Made by a program: the position numbers and the translations under genes. The notes under the pieces were generated by a model. It ran no database searches and was not told where the DNA came from. It worked only from the letters and a program-made list of their open reading frames with translations. Shown here in pieces: positions 8,527 to 13,289 of a DNA stretch of 50,049 bases (its first letter is position 1; each line of letters begins with the position of its first letter). Origin of the DNA: Bacteroidales bacterium. Its GTDB lineage: Bacteria > Bacteroidota > Bacteroidia > Bacteroidales > UBA10428. The stretch covers positions 1-50,049 of the forward strand of contig JAFGVA010000135.1 of assembly GCA_016938235.1 (NCBI GenBank), given 5' to 3'.

Positions 8527-9936
8527 ATGGAGCATTTTTTAAACATACCCGTATTTAAAGTAATTACAGACATTGTTGAGGAAACAGGACAACCGGCTTT
8601 TGTAATTGGTGGATTTGTGCGCGATTGTTTGCTAAACCGACCTACAAAAGACATAGACGTTGTTGTTTTGGGCAACGGAATAGAACTTGCAAAAGCTGTG
8701 GGCAAAAAAATGGGCAACCGCCCTGTAAATGTTTTCAAGAATTTTGGTACGGCCATGGTATCTCTGCCCGATTACGAAGTGGAATTTGTAGGCGCACGTA
8801 AAGAATCATACCGAAGCAACAGCCGGAAACCTATTGTTGAAAACGGAACTCTGGAAGATGACCAGAACCGTCGTGATTTTACGATTAACGCACTTGCCAT
8901 TTCTTTAAATAAGGAAAGCTGGGGAAAACTTATCGATCCTTTTGAAGGGCAAAACGACTTGGCAAAAAAGATACTCAGAACACCTCTTGATCCAGACATA
9001 ACTTATAGCGATGATCCTTTAAGAATGATGCGTGCTATACGTTTTGCAACACAATTAAGCTTCAAAATTGAAAAAAAATCGCTGGCTGCAATTAACCGGA
9101 ATGCTGAACGAATAAAAATTATTTCGCAGGAACGGGTTATTGATGAATTCAATAAAATATTGTTAGCCCCTATACCGTCTGTGGGATTAGAGCTTTTGGA
9201 AAACACCGGATTGCTGAAAATTATTTTTCCGGAATTACAAACGCTCAAAGGGGTTGAAATTAAAAAGGGGAAGGCGCACAAAGATAACTTTCTGCACACA
9301 CTTCAGGTGGTCGACAACCTTGCAGAAAAGTCCAGCAAGCTTTGGCTACGTTGGGCTGCCCTAATGCATGACATTGCAAAACCACCCACCAAACGTTTCG
9401 ATGATTCCACCGGATGGACATTTCACGGACATGAATTTCTGGGTTCTAAAATGGTGCCGGGAATTTTCAGACGACTGAAACTCCCCATGAATCAACCCAT
9501 GAAGTATGTACAAAAGTTGGTACTTTTGCATTTGCGCCCCATTGTTTTATCTCAGGAAGATGTAACCGACAGTGCTGTGAGAAGATTGCTTTTTGATGCC
9601 GGTGACGATATAGACGACCTGATGATGCTTTGCGAAGCTGATATCACTTCAAAAAATGAAGAAAAAGTTAAACGTTTTCTAAACAACTTTCAGCTGGTAA
9701 GACAAAAACTGGTTGAAATTGAAGAAAAGGATGCTGTAAGAAATTTTCAACCTCCTGTTTCGGGTGAACTTATCATGGAAACATTCGGAATTGGCCCCGG
9801 ATCTGAAGTGGGTATAATCAAAAACTGTATCAAAGAAGCCATTCTTGACGGTATAATCCATAATAACTTTGATGAAGCATACAAGCTCATGCTTGCCAAG
9901 GGTAAAGAACTTGGGTTGAAAAAGACTACGGAATAG
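8527..9936 (+). CDS. cca: CCA-adding tRNA nucleotidyltransferase with HD domain
   Basis: 469 aa. It adds or repairs the 3' CCA end of tRNAs using CTP and ATP. The N-terminal class II nucleotidyltransferase head has GGFVRD (28-33) followed by the metal-binding DID (Asp42 and Asp44), then RRDFTINALA and the YSDDPLRMMRAIRFA segment for base recognition. A metal-dependent HD domain follows, with the His-Asp pair at H281/D282 (MHDIAK). The HD-containing form of about 450-480 aa is usual in Bacteroidota. The start ATG at 8527 gives the normal N-terminus. The gene stands alone and diverges from a thioredoxin. The 3' side runs into the repeat element. Confidence 0.95.
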   Translation: MEHFLNIPVFKVITDIVEETGQPAFVIGGFVRDCLLNRPTKDIDVVVLGNGIELAKAVGKKMGNRPVNVFKNFGTAMVSLPDYEVEFVGARKESYRSNSRKPIVENGTLEDDQNRRDFTINALAISLNKESWGKLIDPFEGQNDLAKKILRTPLDPDITYSDDPLRMMRAIRFATQLSFKIEKKSLAAINRNAERIKIISQERVIDEFNKILLAPIPSVGLELLENTGLLKIIFPELQTLKGVEIKKGKAHKDNFLHTLQVVDNLAEKSSKLWLRWAALMHDIAKPPTKRFDDSTGWTFHGHEFLGSKMVPGIFRRLKLPMNQPMKYVQKLVLLHLRPIVLSQEDVTDSAVRRLLFDAGDDIDDLMMLCEADITSKNEEKVKRFLNNFQLVRQKLVEIEEKDAVRNFQPPVSGELIMETFGIGPGSEVGIIKNCIKEAILDGIIHNNFDEAYKLMLAKGKELGLKKTTE

Positions 9937-9970
9937 CTTGACTAGCGAATTTCGGCTCTTTCAGGTCATG

Positions 9971-10070
9971 TCAGTTCGAGCGTAGTCGTATCGATTCAAG
10001 CAGAGTCGTGTCAGTTCGAGCGGAGTCGTGTCAGTTCGAGCGGAGTCGTGTCAGTTCGAGCGGAGTCGAG
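9971..10070 (+). repeat. Five tandem 20-bp repeats upstream of the GIY-YIG gene
   Basis: The unit is tcagttcgagcggagtcgtg. Copies at 10011-10030 and 10031-10050 are identical and 10051-10070 differs only near its end (gtcgag). The two outer copies, 9971-9990 and 9991-10010, are degenerate, as if older. There are no spacers, so it is not a CRISPR array. The same sequence occurs in inverted orientation after the nuclease gene. Confidence 0.9.
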
Positions 10071-10095
10071 AACAGACTAGATTGAAAACAACAAT

Positions 10096-10434
10096 ATGAA
10101 ATACTACTATGTATATATTCTGAAGTGCTCCGATAATAGCTACTACACAGGTTTTACAAATAATTTAGACCGAAGGTTAGCTGAACATATTGAATGATAT
10201 AACCCAAAATCTTACACACATAAACGAAGACCAGTCCAATTAGTATTCTTTGAAACTTTTATTAACCCAAATGAGGGAATTGACTTTGAAAAGCAAGTGA
10301 AGAAATGGTCCCAAAAGAAAAAGGAAGCACTGATTGAAAGAAATTGGGATAGAATTGTTGAATTAGCAAAATGTAAGAATTCAACTTCGCATGAGAGGTT
10401 TAGGGAAGTAAGTTCTCGACTCCGCTCGAACTGA
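10096..10434 (+). pseudogene. GIY-YIG nuclease gene with in-frame TGA
   Basis: Translation from the ATG at 10096 gives a 112-codon GIY-YIG protein interrupted at codon 34 by TGA (10195-10197). The frame stays open and homologous-looking on both sides. The N-terminal half has the GIY-YIG core YYVYILKC...YYTG, then DRRLAEH with the conserved Arg. The second half has HKRRPVQLVFFET and FEKQVKKWSQKKKEAL, which carries the likely catalytic Glu. A GGA-to-TGA change (Gly to stop) would explain the break. The last codons and the final TGA (10432-10434) lie inside the inverted repeat, so the repeat itself encodes the tail SRLRSN and the stop. Family size is about 85-110 aa, so the full frame is normal. 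TGA is used as an ordinary stop elsewhere in this window, so readthrough is unlikely. Confidence 0.85.
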
Positions 10435-10468
10435 CAAAACCCTCGACTCCGCTCGAACTGACAAAACT
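10415..10468 (-). repeat. Two inverted copies of the element repeat
   Basis: The sequence ctcgactccgctcgaactga occurs at 10415-10434 and 10442-10461, each followed by caaaac, making two 27-bp tandem units. It is the exact reverse complement of the 10051-10070 repeat. The first copy ends on the stop codon of the GIY-YIG frame. Confidence 0.9.
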
Positions 10469-10492
10469 CTCAAATATACCTCCATACTATTC

Positions 10493-10582: not shown

Positions 10583-12973
10583 TTAAAAATTAATACGGTA
10601 AATCAAATCTGGCATCATACCAAAGGTCAGGTACTTAACATCTCCTGTTTCGATATCGTACCTTATGTCAAACGGATTCTGTCTGTTAGTTGCATTTCTG
10701 ATATCCAGAGCAATTTCCTGCGATGAATTTTTGCCTGATAGTTTCAAACCAATTCTAAAATCCAAAGAAAAATAATCGGGTAATTGTTCAGAAAAGGGCC
10801 TGCTTTCATCTGGAATTGTTGTTCCCTGTAAGGCTGACTGTTCTATATCAAGAGGTGTATAGCGCATGCCTCCCGACCATTTAACTTTCCCATCTAAAAC
10901 CAACTTTTTAACATATTTCGATGCCTCTCTCCTGCTCTTCAGATTATATTCTTTTCCTCCGAGCAAGTTTAACACATGATTGCTGTTAAAAGCCGAATTT
11001 CTGAGTATACCATCGCTCCCCCTATACTTCGATTCAAACAACGAAAGTGTAGTCAAAAAATAACTGCCGTGATCCATAAACTTTTCCATTGTCAACTCCA
11101 AACCGTAGTTATATCCCTTACCTGAATTTTTAAGTGCTCCTACATCTTCATAATCGTATGCCCTTCTGTTTAACAGGGAATAGGCATTCGATTTTTGCTC
11201 CACCACAGCATTGTAAATATACTGGTAATACAACTCCGTTTTTATTCTGAATAAACCAGAGAAAACCCTGTCGTAACCAAGTACAAAATGATGACTTTTA
11301 GTAAAGTCAAGGCCTTTGTTTGGTTCTGAATAGCTGCCATTAAAATTCCAAACCTTTTGATGCAGAATTTCGAGAGGTGTAGAAAGTGAATGTTTTCCAT
11401 ATCCAAAACTTAATTTACTTCCGGGCTTGATTTCCCAGTTTAAGCCTGCTCTTGGTTCAGGTGAAAAATGCTTTGTTTCTAATTGGGCAAAGCCATTGAT
11501 TCCCAAAGTTGCCTGCAATTTCTCACTTACTCTGTATTTATACTGAAAATAAGGTTGCAGAAAAAAATCATCCCCATTAAAATCTCTCAAAACCCTGTGT
11601 TGTTCAATCGTTCCATCATAGGCACTATCAACGGCATAAAAGTTATGTTTTGAGAAGTTCACTCCTGCGCGAAACGAGTTTTTGCTATTAATTTTGTTGT
11701 TCAGAAAAAAACGGACTGCCAGTTTAGACCGGCGAAAATCTCCAAAATACAATAAAGTAGGCGATCTATCAGTAGTGCTTAAGGAATCCCACGAATTGTA
11801 ATTTCGAATGCTGGTTGCCGACAAAATAAAACGGGTATAAGCTTTCTGGTTAAAAACATACGAGTGTGTTATCCCAAAAGAACCTGAATAATTTTTGTTT
11901 TGCATATCCATTTCGTAATCCGACTCATATGGCAAGCTTTCCCTGGGCTTTAAGGTATCCCTCTCGCTCTCCATCATCTCAATATTACTCTTACCACCCA
12001 GACCGAAAACAGAAAAATTACCCAGTTTTTTATTCGGAAAATTAAGTTTAAAAGTAAAATCCTGGTATTTTGGTATGGCATTCCCCATGGCACTTAATCC
12101 CAGGTAGCTGAGAAGTTCCAGTGTTGAGTACCTGTAATCAACAAGATATGAAGATTTACTGCTTTTATTAAGAGGACCTTCGGCACATAATTCGTAAGTT
12201 AGCAAACCTGCCTGCCCCATAAATTCATGCTTCTCGTTATTCCCATTCCTTAATCGTAAATCAAAAACCCCGGAGATGGTATTGGCAAATTCTGCCGGAA
12301 AAGCACTGGTGTAAAAGTCTGAGTTAGTAAGTAGATTGTTATTCAGCATGCTAATAACACCGCCGGTAGATGCTCCATCACCAAAATGACTGGGATTAGG
12401 AATATCCACCCCGTCGAGACGAAATAATAGCCCGAATGGAGAGTTCCCACGAATAACAATCTCGTTGGTAGTTTCGGCAGAATGGTTTACTCCGGCATAA
12501 TTCATTGCCATACGCGATACATCATTCGAAGAACCTGCATACCGTTGAGATTCTTCGACAGAGAAAGTACGGGCGCTTATTGCTGCAAAAGAATTTTGCA
12601 CCTTCTCCTTGTTACTGGTGGCTTTTATAGTTACTTCATCAAGTTTCAAGGGACTTTCCTGTAACTCAGCATTAACAATTAGTTCTTTTCCCGATGTTAC
12701 TTCAATGTTTTGGATGTTAACCGACTCGTAGCCCATAAACTGAACTGAAAGTGTATATCGTCCCACCGGAACTCTGTCAAACCGATAGTTACCTTCAGAA
12801 TCACTTATTACACCATAGGTTTGATCTGAATTATTCAGAACAACAGTTGCAAACTCAATAGACGCATGCGACTCCTTATCGATTATTTTTCCTTTAACTG
12901 TCTGGTGATAATCCTGCGCTTGCAGGTTAACTGAAAAAACAATTCCCAAAAGCAAATACTTAATTCTTATCAT
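10583..12973 (-). CDS. TonB-dependent receptor with carboxypeptidase-like N-terminal domain
   Basis: About 796 aa from the chosen ATG. It is an outer-membrane transporter energised by TonB that imports a large ligand. The order is: signal peptide (MIRIKYLLLGIVFSVNLQAQ), a CarboxypepD_reg-like beta-sandwich (VKGKIIDKESHASIEFATV), a plug domain (with ISGVFDLRLRNG), then a long C-terminal beta-barrel ending in aromatic INF. An ATG nine codons upstream at 13000 is also open, but the internal start gives a clean signal peptide. No SusD partner is next to it, so it is not a classic SusCD pair. Its ligand cannot be inferred. It diverges from the histidine kinase. Confidence 0.92.
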   Translation of the reverse strand: MIRIKYLLLGIVFSVNLQAQDYHQTVKGKIIDKESHASIEFATVVLNNSDQTYGVISDSEGNYRFDRVPVGRYTLSVQFMGYESVNIQNIEVTSGKELIVNAELQESPLKLDEVTIKATSNKEKVQNSFAAISARTFSVEESQRYAGSSNDVSRMAMNYAGVNHSAETTNEIVIRGNSPFGLLFRLDGVDIPNPSHFGDGASTGGVISMLNNNLLTNSDFYTSAFPAEFANTISGVFDLRLRNGNNEKHEFMGQAGLLTYELCAEGPLNKSSKSSYLVDYRYSTLELLSYLGLSAMGNAIPKYQDFTFKLNFPNKKLGNFSVFGLGGKSNIEMMESERDTLKPRESLPYESDYEMDMQNKNYSGSFGITHSYVFNQKAYTRFILSATSIRNYNSWDSLSTTDRSPTLLYFGDFRRSKLAVRFFLNNKINSKNSFRAGVNFSKHNFYAVDSAYDGTIEQHRVLRDFNGDDFFLQPYFQYKYRVSEKLQATLGINGFAQLETKHFSPEPRAGLNWEIKPGSKLSFGYGKHSLSTPLEILHQKVWNFNGSYSEPNKGLDFTKSHHFVLGYDRVFSGLFRIKTELYYQYIYNAVVEQKSNAYSLLNRRAYDYEDVGALKNSGKGYNYGLELTMEKFMDHGSYFLTTLSLFESKYRGSDGILRNSAFNSNHVLNLLGGKEYNLKSRREASKYVKKLVLDGKVKWSGGMRYTPLDIEQSALQGTTIPDESRPFSEQLPDYFSLDFRIGLKLSGKNSSQEIALDIRNATNRQNPFDIRYDIETGDVKYLTFGMMPDLIYRINF

Positions 12974-13289
12974 ACTAATTTGTTTTAAAATCTCTGACAA
13001 AGATTTGTAGTATTTCTATTCCAATCGTCCGCTCATGTAGAACCGAACTTATAATCAATACAGCCCAGCTTGAATATGTTGATTTTATGATGATTAGTAC
13101 CCCCGCCATTTAGGTTCGGATAAATTGGGCAGCATGTTTAATCACACAAATTGCTGGCTGGCTAACAGATTATCAAATGCATTATTGCTTATTAGCATAA
13201 ACCTTTATGTTCATATTCTGAGAGCCAATTTTTTGTGCTTATGCCTGCATTTTTATTACCTTAATCAGCGAAAACAGTCTGACTATTTT
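12974..13289. other. Divergent intergenic region between TonB receptor and histidine kinase
   Basis: 316 bp without a supported gene. An open frame reaches back to 13125 on the plus strand but encodes hydrophobic, unrecognisable sequence, so the kinase is started at 13290. On the minus strand AATCTTTG (12998-13005), one base off the TAnnTTTG element, lies about 25 bp before the receptor ATG and is the likeliest promoter piece. Nothing else stood out. Confidence 0.5.

Follow-up and report, generated by a model that had tools for sequence, protein, structure and literature searches.

In the window, by which the whole 50,049-nucleotide stretch of DNA analysed is meant, a small gene with a GIY-YIG nuclease domain lies between two groups of short repeats (Table 1). 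It is neighboured on one side by a gene at 8527–9936, which we take to be cca-like, and on the other by a reverse-strand gene at 10583–13000, which presumably codes for a protein resembling an outer-membrane receptor (both names judged from the translations). The left array consists of five head-to-tail 20-bp units (9971–10070; the degenerate fifth unit was placed at 9991–10010 from the sequence) and the right side of two inverted units (10415–10461). The pattern TCAGTTCGAGCGGAGTCGTG, with up to three mismatches, was matched six times (forward strand at 9971, 10011, 10031 and 10051; reverse strand at 10415 and 10442) and not at all in 100 shuffles; TRF returned a period of 20 with 5.2 copies at 9965–10068 and a period of 27 with 2.1 copies at 10415–10471. 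An earlier note on this DNA had described five tandem units, one GIY-YIG frame and two inverted units, with the first downstream copy coding for the tail SRLRSN and the stop codon, and both descriptions were confirmed by pattern match, TRF and translation: the frame starts with the ATG at 10096, contains one in-frame TGA and ends SRLRSN-TGA, the stop codon (10432–10434) being the TGA inside the TGACA tag of the first right repeat.

Table 1. Genes and repeats at the window locus, with the evidence for each
Feature	Positions	Strand	Evidence
Two outermost (leftmost) degenerate 20-bp units, head-to-tail	9971–10010	+	sequence, pattern match, TRF
Two identical 20-bp units, hairpin repeats minus the 3' arm	10011–10050	+	sequence, pattern match, TRF
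Complete left repeat: tag TGTCA, arm GTTC, GAGCGGAGTCGA, arm GAAC	10049–10073	+	sequence; hairpin backed by covariation
GIY-YIG nuclease gene, interrupted by a single in-frame TGA	10096–10434	+	translation, Pfam, clade-I alignment
In-frame TGA interrupting the GIY-YIG gene	10195–10197	+	translation, clade-I alignment
Complete right repeat, inverted; codes for the tail SRLRSN, its TGACA tag supplying the stop codon	10412–10436	-	sequence, translation
Second right repeat, inverted, truncated	10442–10463	-	sequence, pattern match, TRF

The 20-mers of the window are truncated hairpins, most of them without the 3' arm; both arms are present only in the two complete repeats. In the window's own genome the repeat was matched 13 times with up to three mismatches, six of these within the window locus, and the pattern read backwards gave no match there; the repeat is rare nearby, with 3 of 60 genomes, the own genome counted in, holding it. 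In six congeners with the cca-like gene no GIY-YIG gene was seen behind it; what follows that gene is different DNA, and some of the stretches stop short, which leaves no clean empty site. At several places in the own genome (contigs C3, C154 and C204; L022, L023, L025 and L026) copies of the window repeat are embedded in a longer palindrome whose ends resemble TTGGCGGAGT...CCGCCAAC, perhaps a MITE. Two more small GIY-YIG genes of this genome (G000:C59:38121 = L017 5683–6009; G000:C97:1803 = L018) adjoin other palindromic repeats, one of them of the CGTC kind; L018 falls under the threshold of the flank test described below.

Read through the TGA, the window gene was matched by Pfam GIY-YIG with 68.3 bits (cut-off 22.6), which was its only Pfam match, an HUH Y1 (IS200/IS605-like) transposase domain not being matched. 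The alignment of its protein clade (clade I) matched it with an E-value of 2.8e-42. Y7, Y17, R27, H31 and E65 are invariant among 25 aligned relatives; conserved Tyr, Arg, His and Glu are the active-site residues of GIY-YIG nucleases. The closest solved structures by sequence are the UPF0213 proteins PDB 1zg2 (E 7e-19) and 1ywl (E 8e-16); further down the PDB search come SLX1 nucleases, whose sequence similarity is weak (E 0.013 or worse). NCBIfam gave no name for the window protein. A defence system was rejected (PADLOC without a match), as was a phage-borne gene (42 viral-contig loci; best identity 45% across the domain, 52% across a 44-residue piece).

Clade-I genes and the type I repeat

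For clade I, 51 loci were chosen by protein (the best 21 of 38 plus 30 fetched, the window included; species overlap between the sets is possible). The repeat type of the window (type I) was found with up to two mismatches within 600 bp of the gene in 44 of the 51 loci, and in 40 it flanks the gene on both sides; the gene presumably serves the repeat. Of these 40 loci, 32 have their nearest copies facing outward and 5 inward, with mixed orientation in the other 3. The stop codon lies within the repeat in 5/51 loci, so that a repeat supplying the last codons, as described in the earlier note, holds for the window gene but was rejected as a rule. Tandem growth of the left array, also proposed there, is plausible for the window copy, but the relatives among the 51 loci have mostly inverted or alternating copies, unlike the head-to-tail 20-mers. 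Most repeats lie away from such a gene: among 30 loci drawn by repeat alone (the first listed copy in 30 of 79 genomes) a GIY-YIG gene was found within 300 bp in two.

The type I repeat is laid out as a TGTCA tag, a 4-nt arm, GAGC-N2/3-GTCGA and a complementary arm. Arm pairing was analysed at 90 loci, which supplied 197 strict copies that differ in context, the arms being the four bases past TGTCA and the four past GTCGA. Pairing was complete (4/4 positions) in 158 of the 197 copies; after 1000 shuffles of the 3' arms, full pairing reached a mean of 12.7 and a maximum of 24. Among 102 different hairpins, four pairs are formed in 64, three in 30 and fewer in 8. At least 25 different arm sequences occur, which makes this covariation rather than mere conservation. 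The 5-mer before the core is TGTCA in 325 of 439 occurrences (20 commonest 5-mers; the loci overlap and some were fetched by TGTCA). The repeat thus combines a YGTC tag with a hairpin, as do copies beside genes of sister clades, and has no GTAG tag. What is apparently this repeat, but with its middle part (from GAGTG to ATCGAGAA) enlarged, flanks some relatives (L062, L091, L188, L189 and L224).

Across 295 other Bacteroidota genomes the strict repeat was found in 25/27 with a clade-I gene (E of 1e-33 or lower) and in 53/268 without one (p = 3e-14). Within the same class the counts are 20/21 (gene) versus 24/49 (no gene), and within one family (f43) 16/16 versus 9/13 (p = 0.03), so that the contrast partly follows kinship. 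The repeat pattern read backwards gave one match each in three genomes. Two genomes (G154 and G129) have a clade-I gene and no strict repeat, and one (G061) has 237 strict repeats, with neither a clade-I GIY-YIG gene nor a Y1 transposase found; one outward repeat pair lies in the first 20 kb of a G061 locus (L277). A RAYT as the partner of type I repeats was rejected, since a Y1 transposase was not found in 4 of 12 repeat-holding genomes and none of 30 Y1 transposase loci has a type I repeat.

An outward pair was found in 13 of the 30 repeat-drawn loci (starts 37–57 bp apart), and the spacers in 16 gene-less outward pairs picked for reading measure 15–33 bp; the same outward pair minus the gene, REPIN-like, occurs elsewhere in related genomes. 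The gene can lie within a pair, as at L286, where a left arm with spacer precedes it and a degenerate right arm comes after it; at L262 the order is complete repeat pair, gene, half a pair. In one genome (G162; L258–L261) repeat pairs lie within a larger inverted repeat with ends like gaggctgtctaaaa, which is MITE-like.

Two orthologous sites, in one Bacteroidota genus, were compared in relatives with and without the gene. The gene is accompanied by repeats in 12/12 cases, and a type I repeat (up to two mismatches) was found at 0/45 gene-less sites; at both sites the repeats therefore arrive or leave with the gene. At the first site (named after genome G265), 27 of 30 fetched same-genus relatives (g48, which we take to be Flavobacterium) had both flanks; 11 hold the gene with 3–12 repeats and 16 hold neither, the interval then being 29–162 bp. 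The flank tree of this site needs at least seven changes, and presence is not clustered beyond chance, which points to repeated gain or loss. In two of its gene-less intervals (L289 and L293) a repeat pair of another type was seen. For the second site (G116) 30 relatives were fetched: one is occupied, with 3 repeats, and the other 29 are without a GIY-YIG gene or type I repeat, five of them holding 506–1408 bp of other DNA; compared with four short sites, the occupied site differs by a repeat-bounded insert in a gap of 10–25 bp. Ten intact genes from the G265 site gave a median dN/dS of 0.081 (43/45 pairs, 103 codons; an eleventh gene, L297, with a cut frame was excluded), and the intact copies evolve under purifying selection.

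Flank repeats, sister clades and tRNA genes

For GIY-YIG domains in general, 350 bp on either side of the domain were compared and a score of at least 16 was taken as a shared repeat. A repeat common to both flanks was found at 80 of 109 domains (120 domain matches minus four doubly fetched loci and domains with short flanks; the loci are the best search matches) versus 5 of 276 windows from the same loci; without two further doubly fetched stretches (L116 and L117) it was found at 76/103. Gene-centred control ORFs reached the score in 1/43 cases (loci L043–L080) and 0/224 cases (six 50-kb Proteobacterial stretches). Ten one-contig genomes, picked as GIY-YIG-rich, gave 103 rows, of which 26 were dropped (25 in frames of at least 441 aa, UvrC-like and others, and one overlapping); 55 of the remaining 77 small domains have a flank repeat, tandem arrays included, and 22 have none. 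Tandem arrays in which three to seven GIY-YIG genes follow one another at nearly constant distances were seen at L211 (G229), L250 (G285), L111 (G295) and L103 (G191). At the threshold 29/109 domains show no shared flank repeat, and one clade (L082, L083, L085, L087, L092, L097 and L108), in which no flank repeat reaches it, perhaps consists of settled host genes.

The flank repeat type follows the protein clade. Changes of flank type were counted on a tree that comprises 171 domains; it is built from few columns, has many weak forks and includes some tandem near-copies, and the flank labels were set by the author's own rules. Type I flanks need 13 changes against a shuffled mean of 44.4, and tRNA-type flanks 16 against 27.0, with 0/500 shuffles as low in either case.

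One large sister clade has mostly palindromic repeats in its flanks. From a plasmid collection (33 and 38 records in two overlapping sets, 20 of the 38 listed), 16 loci were fetched for diversity (14 from Proteobacteria, one from a cyanobacterium and one from Bacteroidota). A shared flank repeat was found in 13 of the 16 and none in three (L315, L316 and L321); nine carry a CGTC- or TGTC-tagged hairpin on both sides, namely loci of S. meliloti, A. lipoferum (between sufB and sufC), Rhizobium, Shinella, Neorhizobium, Sphingobium (two, the same locus), N. gonorrhoeae and an Aeromonas record, and in seven of these nine the nearest tagged copies point outward. Richness in tagged hairpins was analysed by random placement in five of six 50-kb stretches, where 47, 71, 60, 344 and 490 of 20000 draws equalled the surroundings of the gene; the sixth, that of Neorhizobium, stands outside this statistic and has tagged copies beside its gene.

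In other clades the neighbour is a tRNA gene. In the ten one-contig genomes a tRNA gene lies within 500 bp of 16/77 GIY-YIG domains, and genes at L206, L223, L229, L230, L239, L243, L211 and others stand directly beside one; at the three loci read in detail (L206, L223 and L243) a whole tRNA gene is on one side and a duplicated part of it on the other. Where the tRNA was called, one tRNA-linked clade is all tRNA-Leu, two are tRNA-Met and another is mixed.

Proposed mechanism and alternatives

That the nuclease gene and the repeat are associated is very likely. Judged from its sequence, the window copy is a decayed member of a widespread nuclease/repeat pairing, and the idea put forward in the earlier note, namely that a family of repeats goes together with a small GIY-YIG nuclease and that the copy here is now dead, is supported, the link recurring across the phylum and beyond; the comparison of orthologous loci, which that note had also proposed, came out in its favour. 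We read the locus, with a probability of roughly 0.6, as a decayed REP-associated GIY-YIG element, the GIY-YIG counterpart of REP/RAYT. In such an element a single-domain GIY-YIG nuclease gene would stand between hairpin repeats whose TGTCA tags usually point outward; the nuclease would recognise the tagged hairpin, perhaps in single-stranded form while the DNA is being replicated, and cut there or close by, and the repair that follows would copy either the gene-bearing unit or a short bare repeat pair. The nuclease would then be for type I repeats what RAYT is for GTAG-type REPs and, as a second step, the CGTC-tagged REPs of Proteobacteria would have their enzymes in a sister clade. Movement of the unit and cutting of the hairpin are inferred; the observations on which the RAYT-like reading is built are the association, the covarying hairpin, the repeat type following the clade, the joint presence or absence at two sites and the purifying selection. 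A tight link between gene and repeat is weakened by the genome with 237 repeats and neither clade-I gene nor Y1 transposase and by most repeats lying away from the gene. Also counting against this reading are the repeats in 53/268 genomes without clade I, the weak contrast within f43, the two gene-holding genomes without a strict repeat, the domains without a flank repeat (29/109, 22/77 and one whole clade), the non-outward copies in 8/40 loci, the unclustered presence and the three of 16 plasmid-collection loci without a shared flank repeat.

An unlikely alternative is homing only, with the repeats (and the tRNA genes in sister clades) as pre-existing targets into which a free-standing homing endonuclease gene inserts, leaving a split or partly duplicated target. 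The tRNA-linked clades, in which a full tRNA gene borders one end and a duplicated piece of it the other end at the three loci read, fit this, as do the tandem arrays of three to seven copies and the complete pair followed by gene and half pair at L262. Uninterrupted type I targets are, however, what the gene-less sites should then hold, and a type I repeat was found in none of the 45 intervals; homing into pre-existing repeats alone is therefore insufficient, although a target of another kind is possible.

Less probable still is a host nuclease kept as a caretaker that cuts or resolves the hairpins formed by the repeats during replication, the repeats themselves spreading otherwise. Strong purifying selection on the intact genes would be expected of it, and the SLX1 nucleases among the weak sequence relatives are structure-specific; its patchy presence, with at least seven changes at one site, and the location of sister clades at tRNA genes speak against it, and the joint absence of gene and repeats suits an element better than a housekeeping gene. 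That repeat-rich intergenic regions merely recombine readily and gather small mobile genes by chance is very improbable: the repeats are indeed scattered, and two gene-less intervals hold repeat pairs of another type, but the repeat type follows the protein clade, flank repeats were found at 0/224 other ORFs, and in the 30 repeat-drawn loci no other gene family recurs beside the repeat save one gene in two of them (presumably coaD, from its sequence).

On a wider scale, single-domain GIY-YIG nucleases may constitute a large class of bacterial mobile elements of minimal size that has gone unrecognised. Each clade would be bound to its own kind of hairpin-forming DNA, be it type I repeats, CGTC-REPs or the gene for a particular tRNA, and the CGTC-REPs would be non-autonomous products of these elements; we give this an even chance. 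For the tRNA-linked sister clades the target is known, which makes them useful for comparison.

Comparison with known systems

The UPF0213 proteins 1zg2 and 1ywl are, like the window protein, single-domain GIY-YIG proteins and the nearest to it in sequence among solved structures. Free-standing GIY-YIG homing endonucleases (the kin of I-TevI) share the domain, and the tRNA-linked clades resemble their target-specific insertion; in contrast to them, no intron was seen here, the protein extends barely beyond the catalytic domain, and at two sites the presence of type I repeats follows that of the gene. With REP/RAYT (TnpA_REP) systems and REPINs the locus has in common the tag followed by an imperfect hairpin, the pairs with a short spacer, the small single gene flanked by the same repeats, and the excess of repeats over genes; most REPs do not lie beside a RAYT gene. 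It differs in its nuclease, which is GIY-YIG and not an HUH Y1 transposase, and in its tag, TGTCA or CGTCA and not GTAG. The RAYT features in this comparison were taken in part from passages of PMC3733652.

No paper linking GIY-YIG nucleases to such repeats came up in the literature search, which mostly left subscription papers and preprints outside, so that the link may be in print. The term 'GIY' is absent from the text of Di Nocera 2013 (PMC3733652) and from that of the RepRanger paper (PMC12306157), as far as the portions covered extend, and the passages of the 2006 GIY-YIG survey (PMC1564403) on repeats and mobility contain no mention of REPs.

REPs are a common class of bacterial repeats; according to passages of the 2013 paper (PMC3733652), the GTAG class has RAYT and the CGTC class, which includes dRS3 of Neisseria, was reported as apparently without a dedicated transposase. 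The same passages give the CGTC-tagged REPs an 8–9 bp stem, a 4–5 nt loop and a CCA tail and report TGTC variants of the tag. Against this description, the arms of the type I repeat in the window measure 4 bp and enclose a longer, conserved core (GAGC-N-GTCGA), and the repeat lacks the stem, loop and tail, which are present in the copies beside Proteobacterial genes. A YGTC tag with a hairpin is common to both, and matching hairpins stand on both sides of the sister GIY-YIG clade. This suggests that a well-known repeat class without a known enzyme may have a partner after all; a nuclease gene that such repeats enclose in Bacteroidota as well as in Alpha-, Beta- and Gammaproteobacteria is a concrete and testable candidate partner for the CGTC class.
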